Positions 44,952 to 58,600 of a DNA stretch of 64,000 bases are shown here, piece after piece (position 1 is the first letter of the stretch; the number at the start of each line of letters is the position of its first letter). The notes beneath the pieces are model-generated. The model was not told where the DNA came from. It saw only the letters and a list, made by a program, of their open reading frames with translations, and did no database searches. The stretch is from Pestalotiopsis fici W106-1. Taxonomy: Eukaryota; Ascomycota; Sordariomycetes; Amphisphaeriales; Sporocadaceae. The DNA lies in the NCBI RefSeq assembly GCF_000516985.1, contig NW_006917102.1:962643-1026642 (forward strand), written 5' to 3'. The position numbers and the translations under genes are program-made.

Positions 44952-47900
44952 CTACTCCCTCTTCACAGAGATGCCTTTCATGGTACCATCCTTGAAACAA
45001 ACGATAGCATCAATGTATGATAGTCTATCTATAATCCTTGCAGCACAAGCGCCCCGCCCCGGGACCTCGTGCAGCTTCCGGCCGCCGCGGAACTGTCTTG
45101 TGTCAAAATCAACAGGGTACTCCCAAATACTGGTACTACGAAACCCCTGCTTTAGCACAACCAATGAATGATTTCCGTAGATGCTCTGACATATGCAATC
45201 AATGCTTATAGCAGGATTTCTTTTTCCTGGAATCTCTTCGTCCGTGTCCCCTGGAAAGTATGGAAAATACCTCGTCCCTGCCACTGCCACGATGCACCCA
45301 AAGGCATCATTCATGGGGAAGACTTTCGTTGAAGCGCGATCGCGGTGCTCACTGGCGTACTTCGGCAGGTCAGATGCGAATTATGAGAGAGTAACAGCGA
45401 AATTCAGCGGGGTAAAATCACTCACATATTCAAAATATGCAGAAAAAGCGAGTTGACGATTCGGACCAGAGAAAGCGTCGTCAGGTAGCTCATATGCGAG
45501 AAGAAATCCATATTGACCAATCTGTCCCCAACAATACAAGATGGTTGCCGCATCGTTGATTGCAAGGTCACAGACTTCAATATGGACTTGCTTACTTAGG
45601 AGAGGGAGACGTGGGGGACTCTTGGGGATTTCCAAACCTATGAGCGAGTGGTTCCTAGAACAGCTTCAGCGATTAGGACTTCATGAGTGATGTTGGGACA
45701 TGAAGTACACTCACGTTTGGCGATATAACAGGATTTCGTTTTGTTTGTTGAGGGCTACGTGGCCATTTTTTGACAGGGCTAATCGAGTTGAACTGTCGAA
45801 ATTGCCAGGTATGACTCGATCTCGTTCCCAAGTAGAGCCATTGAACACGTATAAGAAGGGCTGGATTGAACTGATCAGTGAGGAAATGTGAAAGGGTTGA
45901 GCTGTCAGGACTGACCTGTGTGATACCGTCGCTGCCCCAAACAACCAGGTATATACCTGAAATCGAGAACCTGTCATATCTTGCACCCCTTGGCAATAGT
46001 AAGAAATTTCTGGGGCGCTCCGCTATAAAGTCAAAGTGGCCACTTCGAGATATCTTCAACACCGTTAGACCGTTTTGGGAGAGAACGGCGATACGCTCAT
46101 TATCGATTGCGACTGCAAGCACCTTTCCTATGCTGATTCTACTAGAGACAATGACCTTGTGAGCTTCACTTGTGGTAGTAAAACTGGAGATGGTGGTAGC
46201 CGTATCAGGTCGATCAATGGGCGTCCTGTTTGTGGCCTACGATGGCAGATCCTCGCCAACGACAGTAAATGCAGAAGTTTGTGTGATGCCAACGTCGTCG
46301 AGAAGCTGAGTTGCTGTGGGTCTTCGTTCATGGTCGACCGATAATGCACGACTGATACAACGCACCCAGTACTTCACGTATAGTCGGTCCTCTGACCATT
46401 TATCTACACATTCGAAAAGCCAATCCTGAACGCCTGGTTTCAATTCGAACTGAAGCTCACCCGCCTGTTGTCCAGGCACAGCGAGCGAGGCCGAAGACTT
46501 TCGAGAGTAAAAGTAATCATCAGCTACGACACTGACTCCGGCCCTGCGGATAGCCGTCAATCTATCAACTTCTGGGGCATGTCCCAAAGTGAAGGCCAAG
46601 ACTTCTGCAAAAATTGCCCCAAAAGCCCAGACATCCACTCCTCTACCAAGACGGCGACTGTCGCGACTGGTCGTGGAAAGGACTTCTGGTGGTGTGTAGG
46701 CGCCTTGTTCGCGACTGGCCTCTGTATCCACCGTGTATTTGCGGAACAGGTCGCCCACTGTGCCAACAAAATTAACAGGATCTGTCCAATGCTTGATGAC
46801 TGAAATGCTAAAATCGGTAATTTTCCATGTGCCGACCATGCTCTCTGCGCTACCCTGGAAAATCAAGATATTGTCGGGCTTCAAATCCATACAGACACAA
46901 TAATAGCGGTCAAGTCGGCCGGGGAAACCGTCGTGGAGAAATTTCATTGCTCCTGCTACTGAAAAACACTGTTTTAGCAAGGCCGTCGCAAGCCTGTCGA
47001 TGCTTTGTTCGGCACGGGGAAACGCGGCTGGGAAGTAATAACCTGCGTTCCATTCGGAAGGATTTTGGCCGCCAGATAGAAAAGTGTCAAGGCTCCCATG
47101 CTCAGGCCAGGGCAGAAAGATCTTGATTTCACCGTTTGCCAATCCCAATATGGCCTGGTGAAGCGAGAGACCTTTGACTCCTGTCAGGCGCTTTTTCAGT
47201 ATTTGCTTATATCCGACCTCATTGGGCAGGCCGATGAAAGTCTTGACTGCGGCGGCAACAGGATTTTTCTAGTTCTGCATTAGCACATGACTTCCAAGAA
47301 TCTATTGTTGCGAGTTTGTGTGTAAGCTGAGATTGACCGACGTACATATTGTGTTTCACCTCTGTCGATATGCTCGGGCGCTAGCATCCAACACTGCGTT
47401 GTGTTAGCTTGAAGTTTGGCTCAAAGGGCGCCAAGTTTCATGTACCTTGACACCGCCGAACCCTCCATCATAGTTTCCAGGACTTTCGAGATATGGAAGA
47501 CGTATGCGTTTGTCGGTAATAATTTGCGGCTTGTCGGTGCCGAAGTCGATCACTGCTGGAATGAGCAGATATTGTTCCGGCCATCTGTATAGGAAATGCT
47601 CAAGTTTGAGGTTCGCGGCCAGTGCTTTATGCAGTGGCATATGTTTGTCTTGGAACGACGAATGGGAGGCGCCCGCGAAAAATAAGCTTTGGAATTGGTC
47701 AAACCATTCCAGAGGTGCAGGCAAAATGACGAAGAACGAAAAGAGCTTCAACATTTGGGTGAGCACCTCAGTAGCTTGTTCGGTCGTTAGTCGCGCGATT
47801 GCTTGTATATCCTGTAGGCGACCCTTGTACACATCTTTCAAGTCAGAGAAGCAGACGATGGCGCTGGCGTTCTCGCCCCTTCTGCACGCAAGTATTTTGT

Positions 47901-49880
47901 TTCGTAGATCTTCCAGTAGTTCCTGTCGCTTAGTCATTGCTGCTTCATCGAACGACATGCTCTTTGCCGTATACTGAAAGCCGTGATCGCCAGCAGAGTC
48001 AGGATATATATTTTCGACATCGGAGGGAGCAAAAGAGCCATTTGAGGGCAGAGAAGCAAGCCCAGCCAAATCCTGATCGGATGCATCCGATACGGTGAGC
48101 CGACTGGATTGTCCATCCGTACCCTCATCAAAGTAGTCATTATTTCTGAAATAGTCCCAAACGCGATTCTCATCATCTCCAGTTTCTGCCGTGGGCCATG
48201 GCAACGATCTCATTGAGAATTCATGCACGTGTTCAAGAACGTGGTCCAGCAGACGCTCGGAATCTGCAGTGTCTGTCTCGTCGCAAAGTGGGCAGCTGCT
48301 GAGGCCACTTGGCGCCAGGACTGCAGCACTCGCTGTAAGTGTCTGGTGCTGATCTTCTCTGATCGTGTCATCATGGCGCTTTTTAACATGATCAATGAAT
48401 TCTGCCACAGATGGAAATATGAGAGACATTCTTCCCGGTGTCTTGCAAGGTATGCATTCCCAACATTGTGCGTGAGCCTCTCTTACATGTCGCATCCAAT
48501 CAGTTCGATTGACGTACGTTGCTTCGGGGGAAGGGCATTTCTCTAGTATGCAAGTATATGGGCATATGTCCGCCATGAGGTGTTTTCTTTAGTGAGTGCT
48601 GTCAGATCAAGCTTCGAACAAGATGAATTTCAGTGTGAGCAGGGAAGGTCTTTGTTACCCACTTCCAGTGTGTTGCCTCGCGAAAGAGGTCTGGCAAAAC
48701 TTGGCAGCAACATGGGCACCGAAAAGATCGCATCCCTTCATGCATTCGAGGGGGCCTTGGATATGTGACACGTGCAGCGGTTGAGGTTATATTTGTCTTG
48801 GCGATTTGTGATGGGGTTGGTCCCTGCCGAGACACTTCTTCAATTTGAGAATCAACAGCTGAAGCCGTTGTCGCAGACATTATAGCAGAGGATGCGCCTG
48901 GAGTATTGTCCAAGCCTAGCGGCAGGGCGGGGGATTCCGGGACGGTAATTTGTGTTTGGGGCGTTATCTTGTCCACAGTCATGGGACTGTCATCTCTTGA
49001 TGGCTCAGGGTTGCTATGCGCCTTTTCGGCATCGATTCCTAATTTCTGGGCATGCCTTTGAGCATAAACGAAACGGTTCCGCCTTCGAAGATTCGATATC
49101 ATAAGACGCTCTTGGATTGGCGTGAGATCTCTGGCATCAACATCCCATCTATCGCGGCCGGTCTTGCTTCCACGGGCCAGAACAAGGATTTCCAGATGCG
49201 ATCGTAGTTTTTGGTGCGCTTTTGGGTCGAACAGGCGGTCAGCTTTTTGATTGCGGAAATTTGCGCCGGATTTCCTGATGACCACGGCTATCCTTGTTAG
49301 ACTGTCAAGAACCTGCTCTACCTCATACTGGACGGTAGCGCATGACGAAGAAGAGAGATCCAATGCTCCTGCCGGTGTCTCCTCCGGCCACGAATCTGTG
49401 GAGGACATATCTGACCAAGGTGAAAATGATCGTGGGATAAGCTCGGGGGGCTCCGGAGTTTCCGTCCCAGTATGGCCAGCCGGATCAGAAGTACCCAAGG
49501 TTGGGATATCTTTGAAGATGGCTTCCTCGGGTAGCCCAAGTGCTGATGATCTGTAGTCAGCAAAGCCCAATAATGCAGTCCAGTAGACACCCACCGACAT
49601 CCCTACACTTCTCGATACAGCCTTGGAGGAGACTGAGGATGTTGATCACGAAATCACGCGTATCGGGCTGGTGAGCAAGCCTGGAATCAAGGGACGCTCT
49701 TTCGCCAGCAAACGCACCAGTGCCTGCCGCCCAAAGATTGAACTCAGCTAATCGGTTCTCGGCCCATTCATATTGTACCAAGGGTTGTAGATGAAGGCAT
49801 TCCTCGAAGCGGGCCCGACACTGTTTGGCCACCCCACCAATCGAGCCCTCATTTGCTTCATTATCATTCTCGCGTGCCAT
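44952..49880 (-). CDS. C2H2 zinc-finger / protein kinase / beta-propeller-like fusion protein
   Basis: Nine exons (49880-49609, 49550-48663, 48586-47446, 47393-47346, 47268-46241, 46183-45916, 45860-45715, 45654-45426, 45359-44952) sum to 1475 residues with every junction in phase. Residues about 1-95 form the helical N-terminus common to fungal zinc-finger/ankyrin/kinase fusions. A C2H2 cluster spans the exon 2/3 border (FRCPCCCQVLPDLF, CPYTCILEKCPSPEATYVNR, ECIPCKT, SCPLCDETD). The kinase has a glycine loop (GGFGGVK), VAIK-type AVKTF, catalytic loop CMDLKPDNIL (His and Arg of HRD replaced, Asp kept), TDFS instead of DFG, and GRGVDVWAFGAIFAE. The C-terminal 370 residues show repeated beta strands (YLVVWGSDGITQ, LYVFNGSTWERD, IWEYPVDF) like a propeller or lectin. 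An in-frame TAG is removed by a 57-nt intron (46240-46184, weak donor). Divergent from the subtilase gene; possibly a sensor-kinase. Confidence 0.78.
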
Positions 49881-50141
49881 CGCCTGACGTGCTGTCAAGA
49901 CAAATAATGATGAGAAGAGGGGAGTCAGCAGAGAAAGATCAGGGCGAGATGCATTGCACGTCACCACATGTGCGCTAGATCCTATTGGCCACCTCAGGCG
50001 AGGTTCTGGGGGAACCTGCAGGTCTATCAAACCCCGCTTCCAGGGTTGTGTCTTACTTCTTCTTGGGCGCAGCTCACAAAACGCGGCGTGCCATTGCTGT
50101 CTTCACTCTGCGCCCGCAGTAGGGCATGCGCGCGATGATTT
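49881..50141. promoter_or_regulatory. Bidirectional promoter between kinase-fusion and subtilase genes
   Basis: Only 261 bp separate the two divergent start codons (49880 minus, 50142 plus), so the promoters must overlap and co-regulation is likely. No clear TATA box is visible. Confidence 0.55.
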
Positions 50142-52988
50142 ATGGCTACAGAAATAGCCATCGCCGAGGTCGAAGAGATCGAATTCGCCAAAAAGGCGCT
50201 TTCCCGCGTTGCCAATATTGGCGCCGAACTTGGTCGTCGAATGAGATCTTCTGTCGCTGGGAGTCTGGGCGCAAGGCTATTAGTGGCGAAAGCGTCTCTG
50301 GATTGTGCCGATGCCGAGGAACTCGTGCGCCTGCAAAGACGCATCCCTAAGCTACTCAACGACCTAGAGCGAATATGCGGAGTACGTCGCTGAGTCTGCG
50401 CATCACCTGCAGTGTGCATTTATTTCCTTTCCAATTGTGCTAATGTCAGAGGCTGGTAGTGGCCCGAGCCAACAGATTCCGGTTGCCCGATCCTGCATTC
50501 AGTCCTGCACCAGGGAACCGACCGGTCGGCACGTAGAGCGGAAGATCGCGTCCAGCGTGGGATATCTGCATGGGCCAAGGGGCCTCTTCTTGTTCGCCAG
50601 ACCTATTTCCAGAATCTGGACCAGTTCTCGAAGCGTGCAATGGCGATAGGCGACGAGCAACGCCAACCGAAGCGGAAAGCTAAAGAAATACCCGCAATCG
50701 ATGATTATCCTCCACACATCAATCATAGCCTGTATTCGGTCATGCTGGCACACTCTGTGTGCACGTGTATAATGGATCGCGGATATACAAAATCCAGGCA
50801 CCCTGCCAGACTACGGTTGAGAGATCAATTGGTCAAGGTCGACGGGTGCATCGCATTCGACATGCTGCTATGTGCGAAGCCTGATACTTGGGAGTACTGG
50901 CAAGATGTACAACTACGCATTTCATTGTAAGAAACATGTTGAAAAGTCGATCCCCGCAGTCGAGCGCGTTCGATCGCTGACTTGGCAACAGGAAGGAGGT
51001 GACCAAGAAATCGCTTCGAATTGTAGGCGGCGATTCCAATATATACACTGAACGGAAGATGGCCCGTTTCAGGATGATAAAGCCAGGATCTTTGTGTCAA
51101 CTGCTCGAACCAAGACCTGGTGCTCGAATAGATTGTCAAATACAGGGATCGGAACTACGCCAACTACACGAGAGCTCACCAATTATGCAACATGTACTCC
51201 CCGGCCCCAGCGTCTCTCTAAAGAACATTCTGAACACTCACCGTCTATCCAACAGGATGAAACTAGTACTTGCGAATATAGTTGCGAAGTCATTCTATCA
51301 GTATTACGATTCACCATGGATGGACAGTAAATGGAGCAGCGAGTCTATCCATTTCTTGCCCCAGTCTCGAATCGACGGCAGCACGACCGAGACCGACGAA
51401 AAAGTCTTCTACGCCTCGAGGCCGTATTTTGTCGTCGAATTTGAGGGTGGCAAACGTCCATTTCCGGAATACTGTGACTCCTTCTCTGTGATTTACCGGT
51501 ACCCAAGGCTGCTTTCTCTCTGCACAATTTTAATGGAAATTGGTCGGGGCAAGACTTTTACTTGGAACCACGACGAATCATTAGAGTGCAGTTTAAATGC
51601 TAATTGGAATATCGTCAAGCGTTTGGCTGACAGTCATCGTGGCTGGGGAGACTTCGATTACGCCGATTACCAAAAAGCCATTCTCAGCTGCCTCAATCCC
51701 CAGCTTTCCGATAAGGGCACAGCCGAAAATAGCCAAGCCGAGTCAGAAATAGATATTCGAAAAACCATCATTTATAACGATATAGTCTTGCCCTTAGAAC
51801 GATTGCTCAAACTTGGATTCTCGGAAAGCACACGAAAGTTAGATCCGATCCCGATTGAAGCTCGGCAGCTTGGCGTCCATGAACCTGCTATACAAGCCCT
51901 TCCGACTTTCAATCCCGAGAACATAGCAAATTTTGCCCAAGATCGCGAGGCGGACCAGTCTGCCAGATGGTTGGATCAGATCTTGAAAATAAATAGCTAT
52001 ATCAACGACGTATCCAGACGGTGCACGCACGAAGGGAAGCGTCGTGCCACCCGGGTAGCTGTGCTCGACACTGGATACGACGACGAGGCTGTATTCTTCC
52101 AAGTTCCGGCTCGTCGAAGGCGCATTAGGCAGTGGAAGGACTTTTACGGAGATTTGGGCGATCCCATCGATGAGACCGGACATGGATCTCACACGGCAGC
52201 GCTAATCATGAAGGTTGCCCCGACTGCAGATATATACATAGCCAGAGTCACCAAGAGCCGTGGGACTTTGCGGGATTGCGCTCCCCAAATCGCCAAGGTA
52301 AGAATGCTGCATACGCCCGGGGTACATCCTTCAGGCTGATAGAATCATGCATCAATATGCACTGACACCATCGATCGCATAGGCAATTTGGTGGGCAGTA
52401 GACGAATGCGAGGCCGACGTGATATCAATGTCGTTTGGGTTCTCAGATGAGATACCGCTCATCAGCAAAACTATCAATGAAGTTCATTTGCAGCGGAACA
52501 ACAAAATCCTCTTTTTTGCTGCAGCGTCCAACTCTGGCGGAAACCGTAAGGAGATGTTCCCGGCAAGTCATGACTCTGTGATATCAATACGCGAGACAAA
52601 CAGCAATGGCGCCTTTTCGGACACCAACCCACCTGTTGACCGCCTTGGACCCGCGGTATTTGGTACATTGGGTACCCAAGTGCGGTCGGCATGGCTGCGC
52701 AGAGTCGATGGCGAGCTGCCCAAATCTGGTTCGTCTGTCGCCACCGCTATAGCGGCTGGCATCGCGGCCATGATGCTGAACTTTGCCAACCTCGGCTTTT
52801 GCAGCTCGAAATTCGTGCTTCCCACCAGCGCCAACCGTTTGTGGACCAGGCGTGGCATGCTCGCCCTGTTTGCGCGGATGTCGGAAGATATGGGCAACCG
52901 GTGTTTCTTCATCTCACCTATGAGATTCTTCTCTGACTCAAACGAGGTGGCTTCATGGATAGCAATGGCCGATGCCCTAAAGGGTTGA
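50142..52988 (+). CDS. DUF7580-like / subtilisin (S8) serine protease, HET-Q2-like neighbour of gasdermin
   Basis: Exons 50142-50381, 50450-50926, 50992-52297 and 52383-52988, about 650 residues. There is no signal peptide, so it is cytosolic. An N-terminal helical region (IEFAKKALSRVANIGAELGR) leads to a DUF7580-like region (EYWQDVQLRISLKEV, YYDSPWMDSKWSSESIHFLP, LLSLCTILMEIGRGKTF). The C-terminal subtilase keeps the full triad: Asp in VAVLDTGYDD (52067-52069), His in ETGHGSHTAALI (52181-52183), Ser in SGSSVATAIAAGIAA (52734-52736), plus the oxyanion Asn in AAASNSGGN. Exon 2 length is out of phase by one unless an extra 55-nt intron (about 50509-50563, weak GTCGGC donor) or a frame error near 50505-50525 is allowed. 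Such intracellular subtilases neighbour fungal gasdermin genes and cleave them; the gasdermin-like gene follows 677 bp downstream on the same strand. Confidence 0.82.
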
Positions 52989-53665
52989 GGAGCAATGCTT
53001 ACTTACATTCAAGGGGTGACTCGTGAGTATGAACTCAAAAATGCTAAACTGTGATTGTGATAGATTGCGCTGGGAACCAGTCAAGCAACTACTTGCTATC
53101 CTGTGCACACGTAGCCGAATATCAAGAAGTCTTCAGAACCCAGCGCGGAACATTGGTGCTCACTTGAGGTTGTTGACACCATAATTGCCTGCCTGCCTAC
53201 CTAGACGAAATGAATAGCGGGGACGGGTGCGACGCATGATTGATCAGTGCCATAGCTTATTTGTTAGGCCCCGAGACAGGTTAACCCTGATAGCTTCTCC
53301 TTTGGGTTCTATGCGAACACGACAGCTCTACTATGTCCCTTTAATAACCTATTCCCCTGAACGAGCCTGTGAATTCTGCAAAGGTGAATGAGTGTGGCAT
53401 ATATTCGAGAATTACGAGCCGATGAACTCGGTGATATCAGTGGCTTTATGCGCTGTCAGACGTGGCCAAACAAGGGAATGTCTATTACCCCGCCTCAACC
53501 GTGAGAACAGCCAGCCAGCCAGCCTGGAAGTGGCTGTGTACCTACCCAGCCCTGCAGATGGCATCTGAGACACCAAAGATCTCACAATGCTGGAAACATA
53601 AATTTTCATGCACTGCGAAAAGGCTTCTTCGCATTGTCTAGGTTTCAATTTGCAGGCTCATTACC
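52989..53665 (+). other. Spacer between subtilase and gasdermin-like genes
   Basis: 677 bp, no gene recognised. It must contain the subtilase 3' end and the gasdermin-like gene promoter; no distinct TATA box seen. Confidence 0.5.
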
Positions 53666-54508
53666 ATGGCTGCTGTGAGAACTTATATCTTGGCGCCAAA
53701 CCTCCAGTTCAAGCCATCAGGCCCTATACAGCTGTGCAGCATTATAGCTGATCCGTTTCGACCAACCAAGACGCTATCAACTCTCCCGCAAGAGGCCTTA
53801 CCGCCAATGGAGACAATCAAGGAATATAATCACGAGCTGAGCAGCGAGAAGGGACACCTCATGAGCATGGGGTTTTGGGCCCAGTTCCTTTCGACCGTGG
53901 GCGGCGATGCCAGCCTGGAGCATAATGTCAACCACGTACAGCGGTACGACATTGACGAACTCGAGACGCGCTATATTCGCGACGAGCCGTCCGCCAACAA
54001 TGTCGACCTGGTGCGCAGGCTAGCTGAGCCCAAGGTGCAGGCTGCCATCAAGGCCGGCCTGTTCGGAAGCCAGCCCGTGTATATGATTACGGGCATCAAA
54101 ATTGCCCGCGGGCTCACTGTGCGGTTGGAGCGATCCACGCAGCTGGGTGGAGGGTTTGGGCCCACGGTGCCCGTGACGGAGAGCGTATCTGTTGGCGGCC
54201 AGGTCGTGGGCGAGCATCGTAACAACACGACAAGCGCGTTCCGAGCAGGCGAAGAGGATATCGTCTTCGCCTATCAACTGCACGCCATTCGACGAAAGGG
54301 CAGGAAGAAAGAAACCAAGGTGGATGTCTTTGAGTCCGAGGCGGCTTTGCTACATGGTGACGACGGCCCTTATGATTCAGATGTAGAAGGGGCGTCGCTC
54401 AGTATGGTGAATGCTGATGACCTATTTGAGGATGATGAGTGTGACGAACTTGCAACCAAGTCCCGCGAGTTGGCCGGTATTGATGGTTCGCTATATATGT
54501 ATATTTAA
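53666..54508 (+). CDS. Gasdermin-like pore-forming protein (RCD-1/HET-Q1 type)
   Basis: An intact single exon of 280 residues, within the 250-280 range of fungal gasdermin-like proteins. The N-terminus reads YILAPNLQFKPSGPIQL (7-23), then ADPFRP, an FWAQFLSTVGG block (70-80) and YDIDELETRYI. The hallmark strand pair PVYMITGIKIARGLTVRLER (137-156), a Gly-rich hairpin (160-182) and EEDIVFAYQLHAIRRKGRKK (196-215) recall gasdermin N-domains. From about residue 223 the tail is short, acidic and Ser/Asp-rich (DDGPYDSDVEG, DDLFEDDECDEL). In Podospora HET-Q1 a comparable short C-terminal tail is removed by the adjacent subtilase HET-Q2, which frees the pore-former to kill the cell. The subtilase directly upstream supports the same logic. 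No signal peptide or transmembrane segment is present. The call rests on recognised pattern and context, not an alignment. Confidence 0.76.
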   Translation: MAAVRTYILAPNLQFKPSGPIQLCSIIADPFRPTKTLSTLPQEALPPMETIKEYNHELSSEKGHLMSMGFWAQFLSTVGGDASLEHNVNHVQRYDIDELETRYIRDEPSANNVDLVRRLAEPKVQAAIKAGLFGSQPVYMITGIKIARGLTVRLERSTQLGGGFGPTVPVTESVSVGGQVVGEHRNNTTSAFRAGEEDIVFAYQLHAIRRKGRKKETKVDVFESEAALLHGDDGPYDSDVEGASLSMVNADDLFEDDECDELATKSRELAGIDGSLYMYI

Positions 54509-55664: not shown

Positions 55665-58600
55665 TCAAATGGCGCCATTTTCAGTCGGTCGCCTTGCGGC
55701 TTCAATATCGTCGTGCATAGCAGGTCGTGGTTGTGACCGTGCACTCAATCTGCTGGCCGTTCGAGCTACTCCATCTGGAAGCAACACGGCTGTCTCATGT
55801 GTCCTGCCAGGTGAATTTCCGCCAGACTGAGAACCACCAGGTGCACTCGCGGTAGAGGAGGGTTGCCCCGAAGCCTCTCGCTTCTGCTCGTACTTCTCCC
55901 ACCTTCGGTCCGAATACAGCTTCATCTGCTTAACCAGCAATTCTTCAGTGGCGTTCACGGTGTCCTCGTAAAAATTATGGCTGGGCAGGTTGACATCAAG
56001 GTAGTGCTGGTACAGTCCAATGCGGGCACTCAACCACAAGAAGCTATACTTGAACAGACCTGCTAGGGCTGATCGTGTCCAGCTGTTCAGGGAGAATACA
56101 AGTGTCAGGAATATAATTGGAGCAGATATTCCAGCTATTAGGGAGTCAAAAATCAGTATTTCTTTGATTTGATTTTCACCGTAACTCACCAATATATCTG
56201 AATTGATCTCCAAGATGCATGAGATTGCCATCTCCTCCGAACTCAATGGTGTTCATGCCAAACAGGGACGACATGAACGACAATGGCAACTAAATCTGGT
56301 CAGACCCATGCAACTTGCGTTTGCCTTGTCATGTGTGCTTACGAAAACAATTGTGACAATTGTAAAGACCATGATGGCGCGCCCTTGCGCATTTGCTTCA
56401 TCGCTTTGCCTGACAGATTGCCAGGCCTGTACAACACCTGCCTGTTGTTGTTTCAACTCCAGAAGGTCCTTGACCTAGAAAGAATGTTATTCATCAATAT
56501 CGTGGGCTAAAATATAATGATAACAGCTTACACTTGACGCAGTAATCTGCGCGCTTCTCTGTAGTTCTTCTAGTTGCTCGATTCGATCGTCAACACGGGT
56601 CCGAGTTTCGTCTGCGTTGATGTTGAACCAATCGAAAATGTTTTTCTGTTCCTGTACAGTTTCTTCGTTGGCGTTGGCAGAGAACTTAGGTACCTTGTTC
56701 GCCGAAGTCTTTCTCAGGAGGCCAATTCGCTTCTTCGACGCATCGACTCCGGCTTCCTTGCCCGTGAATTCGCTGTGGGGATCCAGTATATGTTTAACGT
56801 GAGTTATGAACTGCTTCAAAACGTCGCGATGGGTCTTGTTGATGTGGATCATGATGCCAAGCTCTTCAAGGATGTCCTTGATCTCTTTCTCCAGCTCGCC
56901 TTCTGGAGTGATGTCGAGAAGCGGTACGTGTAATTTGGAGCCAGCAAGACGTGTGCGAGATTTGTAGATCTTGCGCGCTTCCTCGGTCCATCGCCACAAG
57001 CGTCCAAAGGCCAGCGTTTGCTTATGCATCTGTGTGATTTTGTTCAAGATTAGCAAGACCTTCGACAAAGTTTGAGAGAATATGGTCGTGGTGTAAAATT
57101 GACTTACGATGTTTCCAATGGACTCTGAGAATGCATCAAGCACCTCGGGCTGTTTGTCTGTGGTTCTTGTGCGATCGAAGAATGTATTGGAGCATTCTTC
57201 AAATATAATGAGAGCCAAGTCAAACACAGATTTTACCTGCTGATGTCTTTTGTCGCCGATCCTGGTTCGTATTGACTTGTGCACGCCAGATGAGTCATGC
57301 TTGTTCGCTCCATATCGCTTCGGGAAGCAGGTGATGATGGTGTTGGCATCCAAGATCCACATCCAGAGCTGGTCAACCATGACCACACGCGAAACCTTGG
57401 TGATTTTATCAGAACAGTCGCGACATAATTCATGTTTCCCTAGTCTTGGATGATTGGGCCATGAGGCCTTATCGAAGTCGTATTTGTGGAATTCCGCGCC
57501 CTTGGCGGTTGTGGCACGATATACGACTTGGTCTTTGTCGCGAGAGCGAGTCGTGTTCAGCGTCCAGTAGTATGCCTGATCCAGAGTTCGCCTTGGGTGA
57601 AGGGGAGCTTCGTGCATGAGAAACTTCTCTAGAAGGCGTTTGTCGCGATAGTTTGTGATCGCCTCAAACAGACGAGCAGCATCGATCAAGTACTGTCCGA
57701 GTGGGCTACCCTTTTTATTTCCCTGCTCGTCCTCGTAAGTAATCCGAAGCCTACCGGTCCCGTCCACCTTGACTGGAATTCTCGGATAGCCAAAGCGCTG
57801 TGCCAGTGTCCCAAGTGTGAGGATTCGGCCCATCCCTGCAGGTTGTGTCTTGTCCGCTGGAAGCTGCATCCTTTGTGTTGCTGTAGTTGATTGATCGCTG
57901 CTGGTAGATTTCGCAGGTGGCAAAGACTTCCTGGCTTCTTGTCTCTTTTTCTTTTCATTCAACTCAATGGTTGTGGCCTTGGCAAGGTGTTGGTCAACGA
58001 TCTGCTCGATCTTTTGTGCGAATTTCTCGCGGTTTCGCGATGTCTCCCAATGTAGATAAGGCATCTTCGGGGGTATGTTAGATTAGCATCATGATCAAGG
58101 CAGAAACAACAGACTCACAAAAAGAACCATATTCTTCGGCAAGTGGTCCTTCTCGGTCTGGCCTAAACAAGTGTGAGACATGAGATTATTCAGAGGCAAC
58201 TCCAACAATACTAACTGGAAGAGATTGCTTCACAAAAGGGTCGCATGAACCGAGAGTTCACAGATAATTGACTCCCGTGTAGTTGCCCCCGCCAATGTGA
58301 CTCCTTCAGAATCTTGGCTGAAATTGTTTCTTCCAATGTTCCAATCTTTCGCCTAATCTTGTAGAACTTAGGCGTCTCCTCGTTGAAGTAGCGAGCGATT
58401 GCTTCCTATCATGCGTTAGGCAGCCTTAGCTAACCAATCAATCAATTTACGTACCTCTGCCCACTAGTGAGAAGGACTTGTTAGCCAGAGCAAAATAAGA
58501 AAAGATAGCGAAGGGTATTACTCACTGCCATGTTATTCGATGGAAGGTGGAAGTACTTGACTGTGGACGTATCCTTTTCGTCACGGCGGAGGATACTATT

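Follow-up and report, generated by a model that had tools for sequence, protein, structure and literature searches.

A gasdermin, a DUF7580-subtilase and a receptor-like gene: a candidate three-gene cell-death module in Pestalotiopsis fici

Fungal gasdermins are often encoded beside proteases, and the best-described case is that of Podospora anserina, in which an S8 protease reportedly takes a C-terminal piece off the gasdermin HET-Q1, cutting it at F238, and the remainder kills the cell. Reviews citing Clave et al. (2022) place about 63% of fungal gasdermins in such protease-gasdermin two-gene clusters, known as Q2L clusters. As summarized in a 2023 review, these clusters consist of two genes, one encoding the pore protein and the other a sensor that bears a protease; in some of them a single protein comprises receptor and protease. 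The same review presents some two-gene clusters as contracted pathways whose receptor has incorporated a caspase-like protease, and contrasts them with mammals, in which the caspase is a protein distinct from the receptor. A 2025 review (PMC12881547) counts the trigger of fungal gasdermin proteases among the open questions. Here, a stretch of 64,000 nucleotides from Pestalotiopsis fici W106-1 (the window, part of contig C12) is analysed, in which a DUF7580-subtilase gene and a gasdermin gene are accompanied by a third, receptor-like gene on the opposite strand.

The three genes, on balance, probably constitute a pyroptosis-like cell-death module made up of a sensor, a protease and a pore protein. 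The identities of the genes, their intact frames, the recurrent linkage of the three families and the parallel divergence of gasdermin, S8 protease and third gene are observed directly, and the roles assigned to the proteins are predicted from them.

Among the known systems, HET-Q1/HET-Q2 is like the locus in the length of the gasdermin (278 residues, and 280 here), in its short C-terminal tail and in its S8 subtilase partner. However, HET-Q2 has 388 residues, whereas the protease here has 872 and carries DUF7580 in front; moreover, het-Q1 and het-Q2 occupy a single locus as idiomorphs, whereas here both genes are adjacent in one genome and joined by a third. Q2L clusters share the S8 protease gene beside the gasdermin gene, and the window pair is of this type, with an S8 domain bearing Asp, His and Ser and a gasdermin gene within 10 kb of it (677 bp). 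In the Q2L clusters covered by the reviews, receptor-type repeats, where annotated, lie in the same protein as the protease domain, whereas the receptor-type domains found here (kinase, ankyrin, NACHT/NB-ARC) belong to a linked gene of their own. The closest solved sequence is RCD-1 of Neurospora crassa (8jyz, 8jyy, 8jyx), but it is described as triggered by the meeting of two allelic forms, without cleavage. The amyloid-signalling cluster of Chaetomium globosum (PP/RHIM-type) also comprises three linked fungal cell-death genes, but is described as signalling by amyloid motifs, in place of a protease and a gasdermin. If the module has been read correctly, it would resemble the mammalian inflammasome-caspase-GSDMD pathway in keeping receptor, protease and pore protein separate, although the mammalian pathway uses a caspase and a large inhibitory domain and the fungal one would use a subtilase and a short tail. 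Zinc and C2H2 go unmentioned in the main text of PMC12881547, as do zinc fingers and three-gene arrangements in that of PMC10197012, and a limited literature search suggests that the third gene at such clusters is likely to be novel.

The subtilase and gasdermin of the window

Four exons with GT-AG introns form a single intact frame for the subtilase, in which LDTGYD (from residue 594), GHGSH (632), AAASN (717) and SGSSVA (786) supply the Asp/His/Ser triad and the oxyanion Asn. An earlier note on this DNA had described a cytosolic subtilase with an intact triad and a DUF7580-like N-terminal region. Profile searches of the gene agree on both domains, with DUF7580 (PF24476) matched at 5.6e-25 and Peptidase_S8 (PF00082) at 5.9e-7 in the last exon, the exon before it reaching 0.0057, below the cut-off. 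A cytosolic location is plausible because no hydrophobic N-terminus is visible by eye in the first 60 residues. Another S8 match, C12:1035624, about 18.5 kb from the pair, was considered as a related protease and set aside; because its open frame has a hydrophobic N-terminal stretch, it is probably a secreted protease unrelated to the pair.

To the eye DUF7580 resembles a kinase, and a review notes fusions of such proteases with kinase-like domains, but a kinase fold was rejected: a profile of 14 DUF7580 sequences matched 0 PDB kinases at E<=10, and none of the 14 members matched a Pfam kinase family at E<=1. No paper on DUF7580 was found in a limited literature search.

The gasdermin gene starts 677 bp beyond the subtilase gene on the same strand, as the earlier note had it, and its frame is intact. 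Its product has no Pfam match. Compared as a single sequence with all PDB sequences, it gave 4 matches at E<=10, all of them RCD-1 entries (E 0.0053 to 0.28). A profile combining it with four paralogs from the same genome gave 7 matches at E<=10, all of them gasdermins, including RCD-1-1 (1.8e-32), bacterial gasdermins (bGSDM; about 1e-6) and the HET-Q1 pore (1.3e-6). A control profile without the most RCD-1-like paralog returned 8 matches, namely 7 gasdermins (RCD-1 2e-15, HET-Q1 4.8e-6) and 1 unrelated protein (E 1.1), and at E<=0.001 both profiles matched gasdermins only. The gasdermin-like character claimed earlier is hence confirmed by sequence profiles rather than by structure, the protein being a fungal gasdermin of the RCD-1/HET-Q1 type with homology over the pore-forming domain.

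The acidic tail described earlier is also present, with a net charge of -13 over the last 54 residues, and the paralogs have a common motif resembling KGALL/RGAFL where it begins. The profile match to the HET-Q1 chain stops at chain position 215. Because the alignment ends there and HET-Q1 is cut at F238, a putative cleavage site would lie at about residues 222-235, at the start of the tail, provided that the HET-Q1 chain and residue numbering agree.

Recurrence and divergence of the three gene families

The genome searched is that of P. fici W106-1 (51.7 Mb, 20 contigs), whose spliced genes, HET domains and fungal gasdermins are those of a filamentous fungus, and linkage throughout means no more than 7 kb between matches. 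Gasdermin loci number at least seven: at least five were found with the window protein as query (the window included) and two by further searches. Pfam matches in the genome amount to 29 for DUF7580 (E<=0.01) and 31 rows for Peptidase_S8 (E<=0.1). A DUF7580 gene is linked to six of the seven gasdermin loci, and to all five of those found with the window protein, itself included, which exceeds chance. An S8 gene adjoins six of the seven by the Pfam list, and all seven once the locus C6 is added, where the Pfam list omits a protease with an E of only 0.095 and triad motifs visible by eye. The protease-gasdermin pairing put forward in the earlier note is therefore supported by both profiles and recurrence. 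Although genuine, the pair belongs to a described kind and is not surprising alone, because most fungal gasdermins are protease-linked.

Six loci combine DUF7580 with a gasdermin; they are called here W (the window), C9, C8, C1, C8b and C6. At the seventh, C3 (C3:4206000-4211500), a short S8 subtilase gene is convergent with the gasdermin gene, and neither DUF7580 nor a third gene is present. The C3 locus resembles a HET-Q2/HET-Q1-type pair.

The earlier description of the window as a pair held for the gene identities and the pairing itself, but the locus looks like a trio, since a gene on the other strand, with its ATG 261 bp from that of the protease, had been missed. In this third gene, the N-terminal domain, spacer, C2H2 region and kinase domain form a single stop-free frame of 1111 residues, and more open frames extend downstream of the kinase to about position 44952. 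The kinase domain matches Pfam at 8.2e-11; its glycine loop ends one exon and its AVK lysine starts the next, and CMDLKPDN and DFS motifs are present. The N-terminal domain gave only chance-level matches in PDB (E 0.7, 0.97). The region between the two start codons is a possible shared promoter.

In all six clusters combining DUF7580 with a gasdermin, the third gene is no more than 5 kb from the DUF7580 match, and its N-terminal domain is linked to six of the seven gasdermins. Searches with this domain from three copies converged on the same loci (13 matches at E<=0.1, 10 at E<=1 and 13 at E<=1), 13 in total, and all 13 are linked to DUF7580, for which the chance per gene is 0.8%. The C2H2 half, searched separately, gave 18 loci (19 rows), 15 of which are linked to DUF7580, being the same 13 and two more; those lying elsewhere are C9:467275 (matching the other part of the query), C9:1347775 and C1:2956784. 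The separate searches with the two halves agree. Seen from the other side, a third gene lies no more than 7 kb from 15 of the 29 DUF7580 matches. HET-domain matches served as the control: 5 of the 150 scored (from 304 candidates), or 3.3%, are linked to DUF7580. Death-type genes do show some clustering, though it is much weaker than that of the third gene with DUF7580.

The families also diverge in parallel. When distance matrices were compared over the six clusters with 720 permutations, gasdermin and S8 correlated at r=0.81 (11/720 permutations at least as high), gasdermin and third gene at r=0.65 (10/720), and S8 and third gene at r=0.58 (17/720). DUF7580 correlated with S8 at r=0.42 (43/720) and with the third gene at r=0.46 (46/720). 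W-C9 and C8b-C6 are nearest pairs in all four families, while C8-C1 is reciprocal in gasdermin and S8 only. Pairwise identity among the gasdermins of the six clusters is only 18-36%. Gene order is third(-), protease(+), gasdermin(+) in W and C9; third(-), protease(+), gasdermin(-) in C1; protease(+), gasdermin(-), third(+) in C8 and C8b; and protease(+), third(-), gasdermin(+) in C6. Because order and orientation vary among the clusters and linkage is kept, linkage appears to outlive rearrangement.

The C-termini of the third genes, considered in 9 of 15 loci, differ in kind, and 5 of the 9 copies have a domain above the cut-off. The C10 copy has a kinase C-terminus (8.6e-19), and in the C8 and C1:1835489 copies ankyrin repeats share an open frame with the C2H2 region. 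In the C2 copy, NACHT/NB-ARC matches (2.8e-13, 4.4e-11) lie in the next open frame, which presumably belongs to the same gene. Ankyrin-type repeats and NB domains are given in the 2023 review as usual parts of fungal NLR-like sensors. The third gene is read as a candidate sensor because a constant front is joined to exchangeable backs of the ankyrin and NB types.

Some third-gene relatives stand beside DUF7580 proteins with another death output. The DUF7580 protein at C1:1837792-1838817 (L011:1306-3981, minus strand) is fused in one 892-residue frame to a HET domain (PF06985, 3.2e-12), a known fungal death domain, and adjoins a third-gene relative with ankyrin repeats. Within about 5 kb at C5:3305822-3310631, a third-gene C2H2 match, a DUF7580 match and a HET gene occur together, the HET gene being 790 bp from the DUF7580 match (C5:3308706) that lies beside the third-gene match. 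By eye, no fused effector was seen in the stretches read for the DUF7580 genes beside third genes at C10, C6:1048109, C6:2710505, C1:194926 and C6:2010771.

Table 1. Coordinates of the features at the window locus (positions count from the first letter of the window).
Feature	Position	Strand	Description	Basis
DUF7580-subtilase gene	50142..52988	+	exons 50142-50381, 50460-50926, 50992-52297, 52383-52988; 872 residues	Pfam PF24476 and PF00082, gene model, triad motifs
Fungal gasdermin	53666..54508	+	single exon, 280 residues; putative pore-forming core, predicted to end near residue 225, followed by the acidic tail	PDB matches, profiles, tail charge
Third gene, receptor-like	44952..49880	-	3' end uncertain	homologs beside gasdermins/DUF7580, Pkinase 8.2e-11, joined frame
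Third gene, N-terminal domain	49880-49595	-		
Third gene, spacer	49542-48663	-		
Third gene, C2H2-type region	48586-47446	-		
Third gene, protein kinase domain	47268-46241	-		
Divergent intergenic region	49881..50141	.	261 bp from the start codon of the third gene to that of the subtilase gene	

Several further genes were observed beside these families. In the C2 cluster, which holds the NACHT-bearing third gene, an unassigned gene for a 280-residue protein (gene X; C2:1028920-1029759, L042:2921-3763, plus strand) is convergent with a DUF7580-subtilase gene and placed exactly as the gasdermins are in C1. It may be an executioner of another kind, or else a gasdermin that has diverged very far; as a candidate for the latter it was not counted, since its hhalign match to gasdermins, 57.5% over 28 columns, is too weak. 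A relative of gene X at C5:48533-49226 (L047) consists of two overlapping frames and is perhaps decayed. In the window, a probably multi-exon gene (55665-58064, minus strand) adjoins the gasdermin gene. Its longest frame (56490-58064) has no Pfam match above the cut-off, and its end may, by eye, resemble that of fungal CorA-like membrane proteins.

The proposed module and competing explanations

In the proposed three-gene module, the short acidic C-terminal tail would keep the gasdermin inactive, as inferred from HET-Q1. The DUF7580-subtilase would remove this tail, probably around residues 222-235, and the freed core would then form membrane pores and kill the cell, as others have shown for HET-Q1/HET-Q2. 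The third protein, with its constant N-terminal domain and C2H2 region and its variable C-terminus (a kinase here), would be the probable sensor or part-sensor and might act on the protease via DUF7580. The earlier note had suggested DUF7580 itself as a possible sensor; the separate receptor-like gene is the better candidate for a sensor or part-sensor. A wider proposal, which is tentative and falls somewhat short of probable, is that fungi have an uncontracted pyroptosis-like pathway. Receptors sharing one conserved N-terminal/C2H2 module, with interchangeable C-termini of kinase, ankyrin, NACHT or HEAT-like type, encoded beside DUF7580 proteins, would drive whichever death output the DUF7580 is fused or linked to, which is the subtilase and gasdermin here and HET elsewhere.

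A number of observations weigh against the three-gene module. The scanned pieces of the window third gene matched a protein kinase rather than NACHT or NB-ARC in Pfam, and because the latter were not found the gene is not classed as an NLR/STAND receptor. Pfam returned no C2H2 or zinc-finger match above the cut-off in the third-gene copies scanned, where only C2H2-like spacing is seen. A C-terminal domain above the cut-off is absent from 4 of the 9 copies, those of C1, C6 and C8b having none and that of C9 a weak HEAT match (0.0031). The 7 kb around 14 of the 29 DUF7580 matches yielded no third gene, and at C3 an S8 gene accompanies a gasdermin without DUF7580 or a third gene, so a third gene is not required everywhere. 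Third-gene relatives also adjoin DUF7580 genes at loci where the searches revealed no gasdermin, and the third gene may therefore be tied to DUF7580 instead of to cell death. HET genes, too, are somewhat commoner near DUF7580 than expected (3.3% vs 0.8%), which means that general clustering could account for some of the linkage. DUF7580 tracks the gasdermin only weakly (r=0.34, 80/720). The binomial P values for linkage ignore the common descent of the clusters and are not for literal use, and the recurrent three-gene linkage was observed within one genome. The AlphaFold models, with predicted local distance difference test (pLDDT) values of 30 for the gasdermin (single sequence) and 33 for DUF7580, are not usable.

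Other explanations differ in how much of the module they retain. If DUF7580 were the whole sensor, the locus would be a plain two-gene pair like HET-Q2/HET-Q1, and the third gene a neighbour serving some other purpose. The arrangement usually described is one of two genes, a review mentions fusions of protease domains with other domains predicted to be kinase-like, and C3 provides, in the same genome, a pair without either extra part; against this, the third family lies by DUF7580 in 13/13 N-domain and 15/18 C2H2-half loci, compared with 5/150 HET matches, and the third gene diverges in parallel with the gasdermin, so that a simple pair seems unlikely. It is also doubtful that the third protein is a regulator or inhibitor, either a zinc-finger controller at a shared promoter or an antidote restraining the protease. 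Its divergent start 261 bp from the window protease gene and its C2H2-like Cys/His spacing, as read from the sequence, would fit such a role, as would its position on the other side, beside the gasdermin, in C8 and C8b. However, kinase, ankyrin and NACHT/NB-ARC C-termini are less expected in a transcription factor than in a receptor or signalling protein, and the Pfam zinc-finger matches are all below the cut-off.

The linkage could also be merely inherited from a duplicated ancestral block whose genes share no function, and both the common gene order of W and C9 and the W-C9 and C8b-C6 relationships in all four families are in keeping with this. Such an origin is improbable, given that the gasdermins of the six clusters have diverged to such low identity and that order and orientation are shuffled even in nearest relatives (C8 vs C1, C8b vs C6) with linkage kept. 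Very improbable, finally, is a 280-residue protein that is not a gasdermin, or a pair that has decayed. The lack of a Pfam match, the modest single-sequence match to RCD-1 (E 0.0053) and the lack of a usable fold model would allow it, but the profiles with and without the RCD-1-like paralog match only gasdermins at E<=0.001, all frames are open and all motifs are present.

A three-gene module of sensor, protease and pore would matter in several ways. The separate, recurrent receptor-like gene beside the protease is a concrete candidate for the missing sensor of fungal gasdermin proteases, and the three-gene unit is transferable to yeast for testing. If the module and the wider proposal are true, DUF7580 would be tied to both gasdermin and HET death outputs.

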